Shown in pieces: positions 3,830 to 31,110 of a stretch of DNA of 64,000 nucleotides (the stretch's first letter is position 1; each line of letters opens with the position of its first letter). A model generated the notes under the pieces. The model was given only the letters and a program-made list of their open reading frames with translations, did no database searches and was not told the DNA's origin. A program made the position numbers and the translations under genes. This DNA comes from Pyrinomonadaceae bacterium (GTDB lineage Bacteria; Acidobacteriota; Blastocatellia; Pyrinomonadales; Pyrinomonadaceae): the NCBI GenBank assembly GCA_019694355.1, contig JAIBCB010000001.1:649001-713000 (forward strand). The letters run 5' to 3'.

Positions 3830-3914
3830 GCTCAGGTGGCGTAATTGGTAGCCGCGCACGTTTGAGGGGCGTGTGGAGCGATCCGTGCGAGTTCGAGTCT
3901 CGCCCTGAGCACCA
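3830..3914 (+). tRNA. tRNA-Leu (anticodon GAG)
   Basis: The seven-base acceptor stem GCTCAGG (3830-3836) pairs with CCTGAGC (3904-3910), followed by discriminator A and an encoded CCA. The anticodon stem CACGT/GCGTG flanks loop TTGAGGG, giving anticodon GAG, which reads the Leu codon CTC. A long variable arm with a GGA/TCC hairpin is present, as expected for class II tRNA-Leu, and the T arm is GCGAG-TTCGAGT-CTCGC. Confidence 0.95.
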
Positions 3915-25249: not shown

Positions 25250-25321
25250 AATTATTGGACACTGCGAGAGAAATTGCCTACTATTTGTTCGATTCTTTAT
25301 TACAAAAACTTGGAGGGTTTA

Positions 25322-26092
25322 GTGAGAAAACTGAAGAACTTTTTATCATTTTCTGCCGTTGTGCTTGTCACGTCGGCACTCGCCGCCTGCGGCGCTCTCG
25401 GATCAAAGACGTCAGAGAACGCCCCGGCAAAACCTGCACCCGAAAGTAAGAGCCCTGCACCGGTCGCGCAGAATTCACCTGCGAATGACGCACAGCGATC
25501 GATCGCCGGAGACTATACGGTCACGGGCTCGAATGTCGATGGGCAAGGCAGATACGAAGGCAGTCTAACGATCACACCGCGCGACGATGTCTATCAATTC
25601 TCATGGCTAAGCGGCGGTAAGAGCTCAGACGGCGTTGGCGTGATGACGGGCAACAAGGTTGCGGTCGCTTTTACGGAAGGGACGGACGGCAAAGGCTGCG
25701 GCGTTGTGCTCTACAAGATCCTGCCGAATGGCGATCTGGATGGTAAGGCCGGCTACTGGGGCGTGAATACGTCCGAGGGCGAGACGGGAAAACGCACAAA
25801 GGGCACCGACCTCGACGGCGAATATGCCATCTCGGGCAAAAATACCGATGGCCAATCGTACGACGGTACGCTGAAGGTCGCAAAAGACGGCGATGGATAC
25901 AGCTTTCAATGGAACACCGGCTCCGTCCTGAAGGGCTTCGGTATTCGCCAGGGCGATACAGTGAGCGTCGGTATCGGCGGACCGCAGTGCTCCTTCGTCT
26001 CGTACGAGATCAAGGCCGACGGCACGCTCGAAGGAAAATGGGGCGGCCAGACGTCAAAAAGCTTCGGTACAGAGGTCGCAAAGAAGAAGTGA
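25322..26092 (+). CDS. Lipoprotein with a duplicated beta-strand domain
   Basis: A 256-residue lipoprotein starting at a GTG with GGAGG at 25312. The signal peptide ends in the lipobox LAACG near residue 20, followed by an Ala/Pro/Ser-rich linker. Two homologous copies of an 80-residue domain follow: GDYTVTGSNVDG...YEGSLTI...YQFSW, and GEYAISGKNTDG...YDGTLKV...YSFQW. The repeat looks like a small beta-barrel. No family function is known to me. The upstream in-frame ATG at 25274 is less likely because it gives no clean signal peptide. Confidence 0.7.
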   Translation: MRKLKNFLSFSAVVLVTSALAACGALGSKTSENAPAKPAPESKSPAPVAQNSPANDAQRSIAGDYTVTGSNVDGQGRYEGSLTITPRDDVYQFSWLSGGKSSDGVGVMTGNKVAVAFTEGTDGKGCGVVLYKILPNGDLDGKAGYWGVNTSEGETGKRTKGTDLDGEYAISGKNTDGQSYDGTLKVAKDGDGYSFQWNTGSVLKGFGIRQGDTVSVGIGGPQCSFVSYEIKADGTLEGKWGGQTSKSFGTEVAKKK

Positions 26093-26168: not shown

Positions 26169-27440
26169 TCATCTCAACATTTTGCGCACATCTTTTAAGT
26201 CTCCGTCATTCGGTGCCGGCTTTAGGCCGAGGATCTTGCACATAATGTTATAGACCTCGATATTCGCAAAAGGTTCGGCAACATATCCGCGTTTGAACGC
26301 CGGCCCGTGAGCGATAAATAGAGCGCCCATCTCCTGATAACGGTTATCGTAGCCGTGTCCGCCCCGCGGCTGTTCAAGGTCGGCCATATCCTTTGTCGAG
26401 TTGGCATATCTCGCGTGGGTCGTAACGACATGTCCGATCTCGGTCGAGCACACTATCGGTGCGATGCGCTCTCCGTCGTTGTAATGCAGCCGTTCGGGAA
26501 GTTCGCCCTTCTTCCAGCAGGTGGCGAACGGCATTTTCTTTAGCTGCGCGTAAACATAATCGAGCTTGCCTTCCTTCGGGAAGATCTGATTGATCTCGTT
26601 CGTATAAAGTATGCGGTCGGTATCGTTCTTGATGTCGATAAAATCGTCGATGAAGGCGACCTTACGAAGATCTACTGCGGCCATTCCGTGATCGGAGACG
26701 ACGATAATGTTCACCTTGTCGGCAATTCCTCGTCTTGCGAGGCCCCGCACGAGACGGGCGATGTAGTCATCGTCGTTGAGAGCGGCATAACGAGTCTCTT
26801 CGGCGTCCGGACCGAATTCGTGCCCCGCGTCATCCGTGTCGGAGAAGTACATCGTAATGATCGTCGGCCTTTCTTTGACAGGAAGATCGAGCCAGGAGAG
26901 GACGCCGTCCACGCGCATCTGCGGCGGAACCTTACCATTGTAGGATCTCCAATATTTAGGGTGCACTCCCATGACCGGCGCTTCGGAGCCGACATAAAAA
27001 TAAGAAGCGGCGATCTGCCCCTGTTTCTGTGCGGTCACCCATATCGGTTCGCCGAGCCACCAACGCCCGTCCTGCACCTTCGTACGGTCGCCGATCGTGA
27101 ACGTCGTGCCGAAGCCCCAGACATTATTATCAACAATGCCGTGATGTTCGGGATAAAGGCCGGTCGCGATCGTGTAATGGTTCGGGAAGGTCTTGGTCGG
27201 GAACGACGGGATCATCCATTTCGCCCGAACGCCCATGCGTGCGAGCTGCTTCAACTCCGGCGTGTCGAACTTGTCGACATAGTCGTACCGAAAGCCGTCT
27301 AGCGAGATCAAGATGACCGTCGGCTTGAGGTCTCGGATACGTTTTTGCGCAAACGCACCGGAAACCAACACCCCGATCACCAACAGCAACACCGCGATCT
27401 TTGGGCGGCAGGCCAAATATCTCATCGAAATATTCCTCAT
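26169..27440 (-). CDS. Secreted type I phosphodiesterase/nucleotide pyrophosphatase (alkaline phosphatase superfamily)
   Basis: A 423-residue exported enzyme with a signal peptide ending near AFA-Q at residue 32. Metal and catalytic residues follow the ENPP pattern: ISLDGFRYDY near residue 45, the nucleophilic Thr in PTKTFPNHY near residue 82, MYFSDTDDAGHEFG near residue 197, VVSDHGM near residue 248 and the late His in RGGHGYDN near residue 360. It should hydrolyse nucleotide or phospho-diester substrates in the periplasm. The start at 27440 could be replaced by the ATG 5 codons later. Confidence 0.88.
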   Translation of the reverse strand: MRNISMRYLACRPKIAVLLLVIGVLVSGAFAQKRIRDLKPTVILISLDGFRYDYVDKFDTPELKQLARMGVRAKWMIPSFPTKTFPNHYTIATGLYPEHHGIVDNNVWGFGTTFTIGDRTKVQDGRWWLGEPIWVTAQKQGQIAASYFYVGSEAPVMGVHPKYWRSYNGKVPPQMRVDGVLSWLDLPVKERPTIITMYFSDTDDAGHEFGPDAEETRYAALNDDDYIARLVRGLARRGIADKVNIIVVSDHGMAAVDLRKVAFIDDFIDIKNDTDRILYTNEINQIFPKEGKLDYVYAQLKKMPFATCWKKGELPERLHYNDGERIAPIVCSTEIGHVVTTHARYANSTKDMADLEQPRGGHGYDNRYQEMGALFIAHGPAFKRGYVAEPFANIEVYNIMCKILGLKPAPNDGDLKDVRKMLR

Positions 27441-27562: not shown

Positions 27563-27814
27563 TTAGTAGAGGAGTGCCCTGACGACCACATAGACGAAAG
27601 TGGCAACGCCGAAGGACATAAGCAGGATTCCACCAATCAGCGCGTCAGCCCTCTTTTTGCCCGGTGGATAAAGAAAATCGTAAAGTCGGCTATCGATCCG
27701 GTCAGTGTCTTCTTTCCAAGTAGGCAGCGTCTTTCCATACCTGATCGTAAAGAAGCCAACTATCACCATAAGAATCGATATGAGGAAGGTCAAAAACATC
27801 AGAAGTATGGTCAT
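27563..27814 (-). CDS. Small two-span membrane protein
   Basis: An 83-residue protein with hydrophobic spans at about residues 2-22 and 58-80, joined by a charged loop containing LYDFLYPPGKKRADAL. It is 14 bases after the next gene upstream on the same strand, and the two form a small pair in the outermost module of the asnS-linked region. No family is recognised. Confidence 0.6.
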   Translation of the reverse strand: MTILLMFLTFLISILMVIVGFFTIRYGKTLPTWKEDTDRIDSRLYDFLYPPGKKRADALIGGILLMSFGVATFVYVVVRALLY

Positions 27815-27828
27815 TCTAGTTCGACGTC

Positions 27829-28089
27829 CTATCTACCCATCAAGTTATTGATGCCGTACCAGGGAAGCACAAGAACACCGATTCCGCCAACGACGACGCA
27901 CCACCAAGCTAGGCCCGATCCGCTGAGTTTCTTTCCCGATCTTGAAATCTGGATAAAAGCCTTGATCCCGATCGCTAACGCTATAAGAGAGCCGATTCCG
28001 CCTAGCCACACTATCGAGAATGCGAAGCCAGTGGTCAACGACCTAGAAAGTCGTATTTGTTCATCCAGCAATGCCTTCTCTTCGTCCAT
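27829..28089 (-). CDS. Small two-span membrane protein
   Basis: An 86-residue protein with spans at about residues 22-45 and 60-80. Its ATG lies only 3 bases after the TAG that ends a diverged copy of the asnS 3' end (28093-28172), so the gene sits exactly where an asnS-linked downstream gene would start. Function unknown. Confidence 0.6.
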   Translation of the reverse strand: MDEEKALLDEQIRLSRSLTTGFAFSIVWLGGIGSLIALAIGIKAFIQISRSGKKLSGSGLAWWCVVVGGIGVLVLPWYGINNLMGR

Positions 28090-28092
28090 TGG

Positions 28093-28172
28093 CTATGGCT
28101 TCAGCCTAAACAACATTCGGGGGAATGGAAATGTTTCGCGGACGCGTGTTCGATGCCGTCTATCCATGCGGT
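28093..28172 (-). repeat. Diverged third copy of the asnS 3' end (copy C)
   Basis: This 80-base stretch matches the last 26 codons of asnS at the protein level: TAWIDGIEH, then after a 2-base insertion VRETFPFPRMLFRLKP and a stop. The true asnS reads [25 protein letters not shown]. Most changes are silent or conservative, which suggests it served as a working asnS end in another lineage before arriving here. Confidence 0.8.
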
Positions 28173-28180
28173 GGTTCATT

Positions 28181-28273
28181 TCAAACGTCGATCTCCGAAG
28201 GCTTCAGGATCACGACCTTGCCGTCACGTTTTCCTGCTCCATTCGGCCCGGCGATGACAATGACGTTCGGCAT
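28181..28273 (-). pseudogene. Remnant of a zeta-toxin-like P-loop kinase
   Basis: A 30-codon frame begins MPNVIVIAGPNGAGK, the N-terminal Walker A segment typical of zeta-toxin/AAA proteins, but breaks off at the Gly-Lys; the next residues are RDGKVVILKPSEIDV and then a stop. The catalytic body is missing, most simply by an internal deletion. The start is 4 bases after the stop of the preceding lipoprotein-like gene. Confidence 0.6.
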
Positions 28274-28276
28274 AGT

Positions 28277-28732
28277 TTACCGCGGGCGGTTGTACAACAT
28301 TCCCCCAGGTGGAGCCTTTTCATCAATTATGCCACTCCGAAGTCGGATGTTTATTTCCCGATTGTCTACAGTTACGGGACTTTGAACAATTGGTTCGCTT
28401 TTGGCTTCAAGGAACTCAACGTAAAGAGTCTCAGCGTCATACCAACGAAGATTCACGCCGTATGCTTGCTCGTTACGTACAGCACCGTATATCGATGCGG
28501 ACTTGACACCAGAATCATATACCCCACCTTCCGGCACCAAGAAGACTTCATATCCAAAGGAGGTCGTTGCACCGCCATTAGTTTCAACCAAGACCGCATC
28601 TACATTACCGCCCGGTGATGTTATACGTGCGACCTCATCTCTACTAAGTTCCCCAGCAATACTAAAACAGCCAGCGTTGATTACGACAACAGCGCATATC
28701 AACCAGATCCTACCGATATGATTAGCATTCAT
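28277..28732 (-). CDS. Putative lipoprotein in the asnS hotspot
   Basis: A 151-residue protein with an N-terminal hydrophobic segment ending in VINAGC, a slightly atypical lipobox at residue 22. The mature part looks beta-rich and ends with a Pro/Gly tail. The ATG begins 1 base after the TAA stop that closes asnS copy B, and its AT bases belong to the repeated core. Codon use is more AT-rich than in the flanking housekeeping genes. Function unknown. Confidence 0.6.
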   Translation of the reverse strand: MNANHIGRIWLICAVVVINAGCFSIAGELSRDEVARITSPGGNVDAVLVETNGGATTSFGYEVFLVPEGGVYDSGVKSASIYGAVRNEQAYGVNLRWYDAETLYVEFLEAKSEPIVQSPVTVDNREINIRLRSGIIDEKAPPGGMLYNRPR

Positions 28733-28780
28733 ATTACGGCTTTAAGCGATAGAGCATTCTCGGAAACCGAATTGTCTCGC
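28731..28780 (-). repeat. Second copy of the asnS 3' end (copy B)
   Basis: Fifty bases match the true asnS end (29485-29534) at 46 positions, covering the last 15 codons, the stop and 3 further bases. The match stops sharply on both sides. In frame it reads [14 protein letters not shown] then stop. Together with copy A it brackets the VapBC pair in direct orientation. Confidence 0.9.
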
Positions 28781-28797
28781 AATCGAAGCAGCACGTG

Positions 28798-29193
28798 TTA
28801 CCAACACACCTGAACTAGATTCGACTCGGTAATAGCAACGTCTTTCGTGATCAGCGGCAGATCCAATTCCGCGGCGGCAGCGACGATGATGTTGTCAAAC
28901 GGGTCGCGGTGCACACCGTAGCCGGTTGCTCGATGAATTTGGTCGATCGTTAAGGGAGATAGCTCAATTCCGTCTATCGACAGAACGTCTTCGGCCCACT
29001 GGTCAAAACGTCTGGCCAATCGCACGCGGCCAAGTTTTTCAAGGATCGCAATTTCCAAAAAAACAACAGCCGGAATGTAAACAAGGGTCTCGGCCGTTTT
29101 TGTCTTTGCAAATATGTCGCGAATCCGATCGGAAAGTTTGGAATTATCTCCGTTGATGTACCAAAGCAACGGATGGGTGTCGGTTACGAACAT
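28798..29193 (-). CDS. vapC: PIN-domain ribonuclease toxin (VapC-like)
   Basis: A 131-residue PIN-domain protein. Acidic metal-binding residues are in place: Asp in TDTHPLLWY near residue 5, Glu in VVFLEIAIL near residue 47, Asp in HRDPFDNIIVAAA near residues 96-100, and Asp in PLITKD near residue 118. VapC toxins cleave tRNA or rRNA and are held by their cognate antitoxin. Its ATG directly follows the stop of the antitoxin gene, and the pair fills the gap between asnS copies A and B. Confidence 0.85.
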   Translation of the reverse strand: MFVTDTHPLLWYINGDNSKLSDRIRDIFAKTKTAETLVYIPAVVFLEIAILEKLGRVRLARRFDQWAEDVLSIDGIELSPLTIDQIHRATGYGVHRDPFDNIIVAAAAELDLPLITKDVAITESNLVQVCW

Positions 29194-29436
29194 CTATTTG
29201 TTCAGTTCCTTGGCAGAACGTTCTATCGAATCCCTGAACATCTCAGAGATCTTAGCACTGCCTTCTTCAAGGTCACCGATGATCTCAGCACTTCCGACGA
29301 GCTCAAAAGACTCCGCATTATCTTCCGTTTCATCCAGAATGGTCACCAAAGCTCGGTGCCGCCGTCGCAGCGAAACCTTTTCTTTCAGAACGACCCGACC
29401 TACCGGATCGATTGTTGCTTCGACTGTCTCAAGCAT
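29194..29436 (-). CDS. vapB: VapB-like antitoxin
   Basis: An 80-residue protein with an N-terminal beta-rich segment (VEATIDPVGRVVLKE) of the sort found in AbrB-like or related DNA-binding antitoxins, and an acidic helical C-terminus for toxin binding. It lies 52 bases downstream of asnS, directly upstream of the toxin gene, with GGGGTGAG before the ATG. Both cofunction as a type II toxin-antitoxin pair. Confidence 0.75.
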   Translation of the reverse strand: MLETVEATIDPVGRVVLKEKVSLRRRHRALVTILDETEDNAESFELVGSAEIIGDLEEGSAKISEMFRDSIERSAKELNK

Positions 29437-29487
29437 ATTCTCACCCCGCTGTAATCTTACCGCTAATGAGGAATTTAACCAACGATA

Positions 29488-30798
29488 TTACGGCTTTAGG
29501 CGATACAGCATTCTCGGAAAGGGAATTGTCTCGCGGACGTGTTCGATGCCGGCCATCCAGGCGGTGCAGCGTTCGATGCCCATACCGAATCCTGCGTGCG
29601 GGACGCTGCCGTAACGCCGCAGGTCGAGGTACCATTCGAAGGCCTCGCGTGGAAGGTTGTGCGATTCGAGCTGAGCTTCGAGATATTCGAGCGAGGCGGC
29701 ACGTTCGCCGCCGCCGATGATCTCGCCGTAGCCTTCGGGAGCGAGCAGATCGATGCCGAGGGCGGTCTCCGGCCGGTCTTTGTCCACCTCGAAATAGAAT
29801 CCCTTGATCGCCGTCGGAAAATGGTGCACAAAGACGGGTTTGCCGTGGCGATTCGAAAGATACGTCTCGTCCGGAGCACCAAAGTCGCCGCCCCATTCGA
29901 AATCGTTCTCAAGCTCGCCGGCCGCGTGGCCTTCTTTGAGCATCTTGACGGCGTCATCGTAATGCAGACGCGGGAATGGTGCGGAGATGGCCTCGAGTTT
30001 CGTGATATCGCGTTCGAGCGTCTTGAGTTCTTCCTGTCTGTCGGTGAGAACCCGCTCGACGATCGCGAGGATGAGGCCTTCGCCGAGGTCCATCATATCC
30101 TCGTAGCTCGCATAAGCGACCTCGGGTTCGACCATCCAGAACTCCGTAAGGTGACGCCGCGTCTTTGATTTTTCTGCGCGGAACGTCGGGCCGAATGCGT
30201 ACGACCTTCCGAACGCGGCGGCGGTCGCTTCGTTGTAGAGTTGGCCGCTCTGGGTGAGATATGCCTTGTCGTCGCCGAAATAATCCACCTCGAAGAGCGT
30301 CGTCGTGCCTTCGCAGGCCGCAGGCGTAAAGATCGGCGTGTCGGCGAGCGTGAATCCGTTATCGTCGAAGAAATCGCGCGTCGCCTTGATGACCGTATGG
30401 CGAATTTTCAGGACGGCGTGCTGTTTTTTCGAGCGTATCCAAAGATGGCGGTTGTCCATCAGGAATTCGGTGCCGTGCTCTTTCGGAGTGATCGGGTAAT
30501 CGTGCGAATTCTGCACGATCTCGAGGCCGGTAACGTCGAGTTCGACGCCGATCGAGGATCGCGTATCTTCCTTGACGGTGCCCGTAACGATGATCGAGGA
30601 TTCTTGCCCGACGGAGTTGGCCGCCTCGAAAAGTTCTTCGCTGTTCGGGCGAAAAACGACGCACTGCACGATGCCGGTGCCGTCCCTCAACTGCAAAAAG
30701 ACGAGCTTGCCGCTCGAACGTTTGTTATAAAGCCAGCCCTTGAGCGTCACGCTTTCGCCGATGCGGCCCTTAAGTTCGTTGATGTAAGTTTGCGCCAT
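29488..30798 (-). CDS. asnS: Asparaginyl-tRNA synthetase
   Basis: A class IIb synthetase of 436 residues that charges tRNA-Asn. The N-terminal OB-fold (about residues 1-105) has [24 protein letters not shown]. Class II motif 2 lies near [21 protein letters not shown] at residues 208-228, and motif 3 in [13 protein letters not shown] near residue 405. Asp-type enzymes differ in the region around motif 2, so Asn specificity is favoured. Its last 50 bases (29485-29534) are repeated twice further downstream, marking an integration or recombination hotspot. Confidence 0.95.
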
Positions 30799-30899
30799 AA
30801 CGTATAAAGGGAAAGTTTAGCGATTCTCGCGAAAAAAAGAAAAAGGCCGCGTCGCGCACCTGTCAGAACCGCGAGCGATAGCGGCGTGTCCGTAACCCG

Positions 30900-30955
30900 C
30901 ACGTGAGTAAGGGCTCAGTACGGCTTCGATCAAACGTCGAGCCCTTACTAACGTG
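30900..30955. repeat. Long inverted repeat in the asnS-amgK intergenic region
   Basis: Seventeen-base arms CACGTGAGTAAGGGCTC and GAGCCCTTACTAACGTG pair with one mismatch around a 22-base loop. It resembles a REP/REPIN-type mobile palindrome rather than a terminator, since no T tract follows. No coding gene occupies this intergenic region (30799-31338). Confidence 0.7.
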
Positions 30956-30981
30956 CCGGCTACAGACACCGATGGCGGACA

Positions 30982-31044
30982 TTCGAAGAATTGTGTCGGT
31001 AATTCAAAGAATTCTCGCGGGCGTTCAAAGAATTGTGCCGACAA
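30982..31044. repeat. Three tandem 21-base repeats
   Basis: Three units start at 30982, 31003 and 31024, each beginning TTC(G/A)AAGAATT. Read on the minus strand they spell a seven-residue repeat of the form FFE-x-P-x-x inside a 75-codon frame that runs back to 30817. The frame may be an accident of the 21-base period. Three units are too few for a CRISPR array and there are no spacers. Confidence 0.6.
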
Positions 31045-31110
31045 TTCCCTGATCGCTCGCTGCGATTCGTTCCGATCTCTTCTTGATTCTTTGATCTTCG
31101 TTCGAGCTTA

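Follow-up and report, generated by a model that had tools for sequence, protein, structure and literature searches.

Extra asnS gene ends and small toxin-antitoxin-type cassettes at an accessory-gene hotspot in Pyrinomonadaceae

In the excerpts of the cited papers on which this comparison draws, the minimal mobile elements of Neisseria are gene cassettes that are exchanged horizontally at fixed places (PMC2649163), and restriction-modification genes are described with a long target duplication of ~100 bp, unlinked to any known mobile element (PMC1643837, PMC3874152). By the same excerpts, the ssrA islands of Dehalococcoides consist of tandem modules behind an essential gene, bordered by repeats of its 3' end, with a 20-bp repeat, CcrB-like serine recombinases on 16 islands and 15 without integration modules (PMC3146451), and the Maf and contact-dependent inhibition (CDI) toxins have displaced gene ends downstream, with toxin cargo, that can recombine back via a common stretch (PMC4287609). 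Here we set beside these systems the 3' end of asnS, the gene for asparaginyl-tRNA synthetase, in a Pyrinomonadaceae bacterium. The stretch analysed, hereafter the window, comprises 64,000 nucleotides (positions 649,001 to 713,000 of contig JAIBCB010000001.1, assembly GCA_019694355.1); behind its asnS gene are stacked two extra copies of the asnS end together with toxin-antitoxin (TA)-type genes and remnants. A literature search, with limited coverage of subscription papers, found no prior report of this locus. G-numbers denote genomes (G000 is the window's own), L-numbers loci and C-numbers contigs.

The site of the array is the asnS 3' end, where the stop codon occupies 29488-29490. A repeat search matches 29485-29534 to 28731-28780 at 92% (46/50; copy B); farther downstream, 28090-28139 matches in the same register at 62%, and 28145-28173 matches 29538-29566 at 90% (copy C, 28093-28173). 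Both extra ends have the orientation of asnS, just as the first-pass annotation of the window had read them. In a gapped local search, copies B and C score 78 and 111, far above chance given that the best reverse-strand scores in 34 downstream regions are 20-38. From asnS to the conserved right-hand neighbour, the features are the following.

29488-30798, minus strand: asnS, asparaginyl-tRNA synthetase, 436 aa (PF00152, E 2.6e-71; PF01336)
29488-29559, minus strand: working asnS 3' end, with anomalous codon usage in the last 14 codons genus-wide
29437-29487, minus strand: leader of 51 nt between asnS and vapB; promoter plausible by eye only
29194-29436, minus strand: VapB-like antitoxin, 80 aa; open reading frame (ORF) with 45-55% identity to counterparts in G020, G034, G023 and G062
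28798-29193, minus strand: VapC-like PIN toxin, 131 aa (PF01850, E 2.2e-8), of the asnS-linked clade
28734-28780, minus strand: copy B, extra asnS 3' end, terminating in a stop codon; begins 17 nt past the vapC stop
28277-28732, minus strand: lipoprotein-like ORF, 151 aa; lipobox-like VINAGC by eye, no Pfam match
28181-28273, minus strand: zeta and F5 remnant, 30-aa ORF, by comparison with the G003 zeta and the G017 F5
28093-28173, minus strand: copy C, extra asnS 3' end; left side decayed, right flank common to the copy in G003
27829-28089, minus strand: DUF4190-like gene, 86 aa, directly after copy C (PF13828, E 4.9e-6, 26.6 bits vs cut-off 35)
27563-27814, minus strand: ORF of 83 aa, other accessory gene; ORF only, no Pfam match
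26169-27440, minus strand: phosphodiesterase (PDE) gene, right-hand neighbour of the variable region (PF01663, E 4.5e-90)

The lipoprotein-like ORF starts 1 nt past the stop codon of copy B. In the 30-aa ORF, residues 1-15 of a zeta toxin run on in frame into the final 15 of its small partner (F5), and the translation of copy C terminates in ..RETFPFPRMLFRLKP*. A consensus scan of the leader found 0 promoter-like sites. The only tRNA that ARAGORN predicts in the window (3830-3914) is far from the array.

Extra asnS ends recur across the family. A protein search of 60 genomes, including the window's own, gave a match in 60/60, with G036 having only a distant synthetase (28%) and no clear asnS; the downstream DNA sample comprised 38 loci (one of them, L067, without the gene end), 5 further genus loci and 32 family loci. 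A profile of the last 69 nt of asnS (R1), used with strict filters under which some weak matches or copies can be lost, matched 39/41 genus genomes and 102/119 family genomes. Beyond the gene's own end, it detected 16 extra copies in 13 of the 119 family genomes: G000, G005 and G008 with two each, G003, G011, G012, G017, G020, G022, G023 and G032 with one each, and G101 and G132 from other genera. All 16 lie on the asnS strand, at most 1.5 kb downstream of asnS. Away from asnS, R1 has a single match at E <=0.001, which is weak (G090:C7, E 8.9e-4), and two more weak ones at E <=0.01 (G033:C55 and G025:C46). Possible decayed copies follow asnS in G021 (E 0.0064 by profile; score 44, null maximum 38), in G004 (score 40, with a second, chance-like match there also at 40) and in G062 (39 vs 30 on the reverse strand). 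Where intact, the copies end on the right at the stop codon; the left edge lies at about codon -14 to -45, and decay may blur the edges. The copy in G132 has internal deletions.

Most loci of sufficient length have the gene order asnS, variable DNA, PDE, metallophosphatase and a UbiD-like gene, and the variable part ranges from almost nothing in G026, where PDE comes next after asnS, to ~7.8 kb in G030. Empty counterparts of occupied sites are thus at hand: asnS beside PDE in G026, and asnS beside DUF4190 in G007, where DUF4190 starts at +9 from the last asnS codon. DUF4190 follows copy C in the window and the copy in G003, and PDE directly follows the copy in G022 and G132; therefore, the same pattern precedes different right-hand neighbours. 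As had been proposed from the window alone, accessory genes have a hotspot at the asnS 3' end; some of the sites are empty, and the others vary in content. The alternative cassettes lie between two conserved genes and contain no mobility genes, the exception seen being an IS200-like transposase in G005. The modules are bordered by direct repeats of the target gene's 3' end, with the exception of the lipoprotein gene insertion, which has no repeat of its own.

The cargo is, in 10 of the 13 extra-copy genomes, a predicted TA-type module or its remnant. VapBC lies before or between the copies in G000, G020 and G023, and also in G062 with its possible decayed copy; an AF2212-like gene and a MazF-like toxin occupy the same position in G011 and G008. 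G017 has a zeta toxin with the small overlapping gene F5, and in G003, G022 and G032 zeta is followed by F5-like endings, read by eye. Remnants occur in three genomes: G000 has the fused zeta-F5 ORF, G008 an F5-like frame that lacks zeta, and G012 the initial 11 residues of zeta. Toxins of known type II TA families with a small gene upstream are present, namely, the VapBC- and MazF-like pairs. These names are supported to different degrees: zeta matches PF06414 at E 2e-11 and VapC the PIN family at E 2.2e-8 and 5.5e-6, over the cut-off; the MazF-like toxin matches PF02452 at E 1.4e-4, with 22.5 bits vs a cut-off of 23.1, and the AF2212-like protein is also just under its cut-off. Neither F5 nor the VapB proteins were recognised in Pfam or NCBIfam searches, and the window VapB, which likewise has no match there, is named from its position and its likeness to other asnS-linked small genes.

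Two cassettes have a different content. In G005 (locus L046), an IS200-like Y1 transposase (PF01797, E 2.5e-21) lies in the first cassette, 326-769 downstream of asnS, beside a VapB-like piece. In G132, from another genus (L174, 4500-5900), the order is asnS, a YhcG-like PDDEXK nuclease (DUF1016_N, YhcG_C), an asnS end and PDE.

The fit between the cargo and the asnS ends is tight. Often the last cargo gene stops right at the copy, as with the F5-like stop in G003, G017, G022 and G032; between the vapC stop and the copy there are 17 nt in G000 (copy B) and a few nt in G020. In the 7 genomes in which zeta comes first (G003, G022, G021, G004, G032, G006 and G016), its ATG lies anywhere from a 1-nt overlap with the asnS stop to 3 nt after it. 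The antitoxin genes of VapBC and of the MazF-like pair start 46-59 nt past the last asnS codon (the window, G020, G023, G034, G062, G008 and G011).

Within the genus, moreover, the asnS-linked zeta and VapC clades are found only at asnS. All 14 matches at least 60% identical to the G032 zeta in the 41 genus genomes lie at most 1.8 kb downstream of asnS, and zeta pieces additionally occur at asnS in G020 and G028; elsewhere in the genus, zeta reaches at most 37% identity, except for a 30-residue piece in G005. Among 147 class genomes, G105, from another genus, has zeta 12 bp past the last asnS codon. With the window VapC as the query in the 41 genomes, the other three asnS-linked VapC have E <=7e-32 and all remaining VapC E >=1.6e-14; the four intact asnS-linked proteins are mutually 43-75% identical. 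The cargo does not follow the asnS phylogeny because the near sisters G004 and G032 (asnS 90.7% over the bins used) have zeta toxins only 62% identical, and because VapC is 75% identical between G020 and G062, whose asnS genes have other partners in the tree, those of G063 (support 92/96) and G005 (100/100), respectively. Zeta loci from other genera, 19 in all (G105 at asnS and 18 elsewhere), gave no discernible asnS-like end duplication; the flanking-repeat score exceeded the reverse-strand control in 4/19 (L162, 29 vs 24; L163, 94 vs 77; L166, 50 vs 43; L172, 33 vs 29), two high-scoring loci among them being long, GC-rich, poorly matched stretches. A zeta gene behind DUF4190 at asnS in G007 (G007:C21:171320-171877) holds one in-frame TAG and is possibly a broken toxin gene.

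Silent divergence bears on the origin of the extra ends. The last 15 codons, including the stop, were compared between copy and resident end for 11 of the 16 copies, five being omitted for indels or missing parts (the first copies of G008 and G005, and those of G017, G023 and G101). The 102 nucleotide differences amount to 62 silent and 19 altered codons, vs 64 altered codons expected under free drift (minimum 49 in 4000 runs) and 55.5 (minimum 42 in 1000 runs) under an asymmetric null, in which the working end accepts only silent changes and the copy any change. Silent and altered codons number 9/0 in G003, 6/0 in G132, 9/1 in G012, 10/2 in copy C, 6/4 in G005, 6/3 in G020, 5/3 in G032 and 3/1 in G008, with non-discriminating values of 4/4 in G011, 2/1 in copy B and 2/0 in G022. 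In G003, G012, G132, copy C, G005 and G020, the altered codons are fewer than in a free-running duplicate (P <=0.009, asymmetric null). Since the divergence from the resident end is mostly silent, most extra copies appear to be displaced working ends, and a derivation of both repeats from the resident target does not hold for most copies tested.

Compared with 34 genus ends, the G020 copy has 3 differences to the G034 end vs 13 to its own, the G003 copy 4 to G030 vs 9 to its own, and copy C 8 to G030 vs 13 to its own, the nearest of 34 ends having a built-in advantage in all such comparisons; copy B (4 nucleotide differences) and the G022 copy (2 silent changes) are nearest to their own resident ends. 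Mostly, then, the two ends of an array seem to derive from two working asnS alleles, and which of them was the incomer varies or cannot be told. The first-pass annotation had regarded both window copies as probably derived from other asnS genes. This appears to hold for most copies, including copy C, and is not or only weakly supported for copy B, nearest to its own asnS, the changes in which (2 silent, 1 altered; P 0.07 and 0.18) do not discriminate and so do not bear out the coding constraint claimed for them.

A codon signature marks the end of the working gene. In 34 genus asnS genes, AGG and AGA make up 65.5% of the 87 Arg codons in the last 14 positions vs 5.7% of 753 elsewhere, and TTG and TTA make up 48.5% of the 68 Leu codons vs 12.2% of 1252; the window of the last 14 codons ranks 1st of 191. 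Outside the genus, the contrast is smaller: 51/151 vs 20.8% for Arg and Leu pooled in 34 family loci, and 27.2 vs 11.5% (Arg) and 24.8 vs 21.7% (Leu) in asnS of named genomes (78 of the 80 loci kept in that scan, one of which is close, an 84% match in a Pyrinomonadaceae metagenome-assembled genome, MAG). For 303 other long ORFs at the same loci, the values are 25.4 vs 17.0% and 21.1 vs 19.6%. The drop in GC content at third codon positions at the asnS end is weak, and the Arg/Leu contrast is the robust form of the signature, which agrees with an exchange of ends as separate pieces; the end may also be under other constraints. A divergence spike at the asnS end was sought in plain identity bins, which showed none.

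Just upstream, at asnS codons -15 to -56, synonymous sites are unusually conserved genus-wide (0.45-0.68 of expectation in three 14-codon windows). Constraint, codon selection or homogenisation by recombination are possible causes.

Evidence of recombination itself comes from one species pair, G006 and G016. Their asnS genes show 71-92% identity in 60-column windows up to -340 and 96.4% from -330 to 0, with the best left breakpoint at -325; downstream, 857/860 positions are identical from 0 to +860, through zeta, and identity is 92% beyond +860. This pattern fits a shared recombination tract of 1.2 kb that includes the asnS end and zeta, and lends the homologous recombination suggested by the first-pass annotation partial support, from fragmented MAGs of a single pair.

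A second case is a hint at most. In G023 (G023:C1:1-711, locus L154), the asnS at the start of the contig is a hybrid in which a distant AsnS body is joined to a genus-type 3' end: the protein is 46-59% identical to genus proteins over the fragment, end included, codons -51 to -230 agree with the closest of 34 genus genes at mostly 9-16 of 30 nt, and the last 40 codons are of the genus type (27-30 of 30 nt), followed by VapBC and the copy. The 5' part of a normal genus asnS is also present in G023, at the edge of a different contig. Unless the hybrid is an assembly error, a foreign asnS may have been joined to the resident end by recombination immediately upstream of the repeated piece; among the 41 genomes, such a hybrid occurs in G023 only.

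We consider it just on the probable side that these are TA cassettes which bring an asnS end along as a portable homology arm and are exchanged by homologous recombination. Very small cassettes, TA modules in many cases, would be exchanged in the asnS-PDE interval, and a full cassette would consist of TA genes followed by an asnS 3' end. This end would act as the portable right-hand arm and the resident asnS as the left-hand arm. Incoming DNA would stem from related species, for example, via natural transformation, which is plausible because ComEC is present in the window's genome (G000), uptake itself being something that we infer. One crossover would lie in asnS on the left and the other, on the right, between the cassette's asnS-end copy and the resident asnS end. 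The TA module would then come to lie just behind an intact asnS, whichever gene follows, with one asnS end displaced behind the module, and repeated events would stack modules; at the outset, an asnS end would have become attached to a TA module for the first time.

The first-pass annotation had envisaged that each arrival brings a donor end, replaces the resident end, leaves the old one behind and so stacks modules by age. The putative age order fits the decayed inner remnants in G000 and G008. There is no asnS end between the lipoprotein gene and the zeta remnant, hence not every arrival leaves one. In G020, it is the displaced copy and not the resident end that looks foreign, so that the donor's end may be either of the two.

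A number of observations weigh against the exchange of TA cassettes by way of a portable asnS arm. The right breakpoint of the G006/G016 tract falls in a common downstream gene rather than in an asnS copy, so that a copy acting as an arm is not seen, and both genomes are fragmented MAGs (540 and 580 contigs, the relevant ones being 4.2 and 3.5 kb), so that a chimeric assembly is possible; the G023 hybrid, too, may be a MAG assembly chimera. The homology that the copies offer is short (~45-90 bp) and imperfect. For copy B, G022 and G011, the silent bias does not reach significance (P 0.18, 0.14 and 0.19, respectively, asymmetric null). For the last 14 codons of the resident genes, silent divergence measured against the gene-wide expectation in 12 near pairs is 66 vs 57.9, without an overall excess; the apparent excess over the local expectation (70 vs 40.7, near pairs) arises because the stretch just upstream is very conserved, and we do not use it as evidence. 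The cargo labels are neither clearly clustered nor scattered on the asnS tree: label shuffles are as clustered in 175/500 cases for zeta, 500/500 for VapBC and 27/500 for the MazF-like pair. The cargoes of G005 (VapB-like piece, IS200-like transposase) and G132 (YhcG-like nuclease) are not clear TA pairs, none of TA type was recognised in G101, and the TA function of the others is a prediction. Finally, tyrosine recombinases occur in 36/36 genomes searched.

These recombinases count in favour of site-specific integration, in which the asnS 3' end would be the bacterial attachment site (attB) for a tyrosine recombinase encoded elsewhere, and the cassettes would be cis-mobilizable, att-flanked remnants accreted in tandem, as at ssrA or rlmH. 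Such a scheme would account for the strict locus specificity and orientation, the restored gene end and the stacked repeats. We consider it unlikely, given that the repeats have their left edge anywhere from about codon -14 to -45, where a fixed att core would give a constant one, and that, as the first-pass annotation had noted for the region, searches with PF00589 and PF00239 place no integrase near asnS among the matches listed. All 5 PF00589 matches in G000 are on contigs other than the asnS contig, and in the 36 genomes those sharing a contig with asnS are at least ~77 kb away among the matches listed, a distance that cannot always be judged because many asnS contigs are short. Serine recombinases (PF00239) have matches in 14/41 genomes, G000 not among them, and no such match lies on an asnS contig. 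Folded as single-stranded DNA, four strands do no better than shuffles (z -0.83, -0.48, 0.30 and 1.04), and on these values an integron attC reading was also rejected. No viral contig carrying an asnS end was found: a degenerate end pattern retrieved two viral contigs, both by chance matches outside any asnS gene. The phage collection gave 15 records, 8 of them at 45% identity in another gene and 7 at 64-73% identity, the latter unannotated Listeria, Staphylococcus and Enterococcus records. A phage or island carrier was dropped after these searches, which covered viral and phage sequences only.

Another possibility is an insertion with a long target duplication, as proposed for restriction-modification genes, by which a TA module inserts, copies ~60-90 bp of the resident end and diverges later. 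The addiction-type cargo, the repeat of ~50-90 bp and the lack of mobility genes agree with it, as do the G022 copy and copy B, which are so close to their resident ends; the six copies with too few altered codons and the G020 copy, nearer to the G034 end than to its own, do not, and we regard this origin as quite improbable. It is very unlikely, in our view, that an old, vertically inherited asnS-zeta arrangement with lineage-specific decay, occasional gene conversion and little real mobility accounts for the locus. The restriction of the zeta clade to asnS within the genus, and its presence right behind asnS in G105, would be expected of it. The gene order, however, differs (asnS-zeta-copy-DUF4190 in G003 vs asnS-DUF4190-zeta in G007), as do the right flanks of the copies, and neither the 62% identity of zeta between the near sisters G004 and G032 nor the common tract of G006 and G016 suits such an arrangement.

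Some features beside the array deserve mention. Upstream of asnS (window 30870-31060), there is a 31-nt inverted repeat (30886-30916 and 30939-30969, 87%), and after it direct repeats with a 21-nt spacing that contain AAGAATT (30975-31058). Beyond PDE lies a 272-aa lipoprotein-like gene (25274-26092), the family members of which occur near PDE in many relatives, sometimes in two copies and often at the edge of the variable region. In G007 (L068) and G024 (L066), the asnS match is split near residue 292-299 by an in-frame stretch, ~21 aa long in G007 and longer in G024.

For the question of how TA and defence modules on chromosomes travel when no mobile element carries them, the asnS locus offers many parallel cases within one genus, among them empty sites, stacked sites and remnants, along with toxin clades restricted to the locus. 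The silent positions at the end of this essential gene provide a natural readout of resident vs incoming DNA, so that a recombination-driven spread of TA modules would become directly testable here; the codon signature suggests, in addition, that the end of a core gene can carry one of its own. Beyond the exchange of TA cassettes on a portable asnS arm, we entertain, only tentatively and as a rather doubtful generalization, a recombinase-free class of mobile cassettes, in which the 3' end of a single essential gene would have been taken over by TA modules to serve them as a mobility part. This end would be at once the landing pad, the right-hand homology arm and the safeguard of the essential gene, and locus-locked families would spread among species, rewriting the last 14 asnS codons.

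Among the described systems, and judged on the excerpts introduced above, the ssrA islands of Dehalococcoides, which are grouped here with staphylococcal cassette chromosome (SCC) elements, appear to be the best structural match for the stacked gene ends. As in tandem gene-end islands generally (ssrA islands, SCC and cis-mobilizable elements), direct repeats of a gene's 3' end are present at asnS; an integrase on the element or its neighbour was not found, and the extent of the repeat is not fixed. The asnS array differs from the ssrA and SCC islands in its repeats of ~45-90 bp with a variable left edge, its modules of ~0.3-1.3 kb and the lack of a recombinase seen at the site. The Maf/CDI cassettes look like a mechanistic analogue, the difference being that, on the excerpted account, the swapped end is there the toxin domain itself, and at asnS it is the end of a housekeeping gene, the protein sequence of which is kept. 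With the long target duplications, to go by the same excerpts, the locus seems to share addiction-type genes and a direct repeat of the order of 100 bp; unlike them, a single gene end is hit repeatedly, and most differences between the asnS ends are silent, as between two working alleles. Minimal mobile elements, as Saunders and Snyder reportedly defined them in 2002, lie between conserved genes, have no mobility genes and are exchanged by recombination in the flanks. The asnS cassettes resemble them in the fixed site and the lack of mobility genes, and differ in that many are closed by a further copy of the 3' end of the left neighbour; because they carry this end with them, they need not share a right neighbour.

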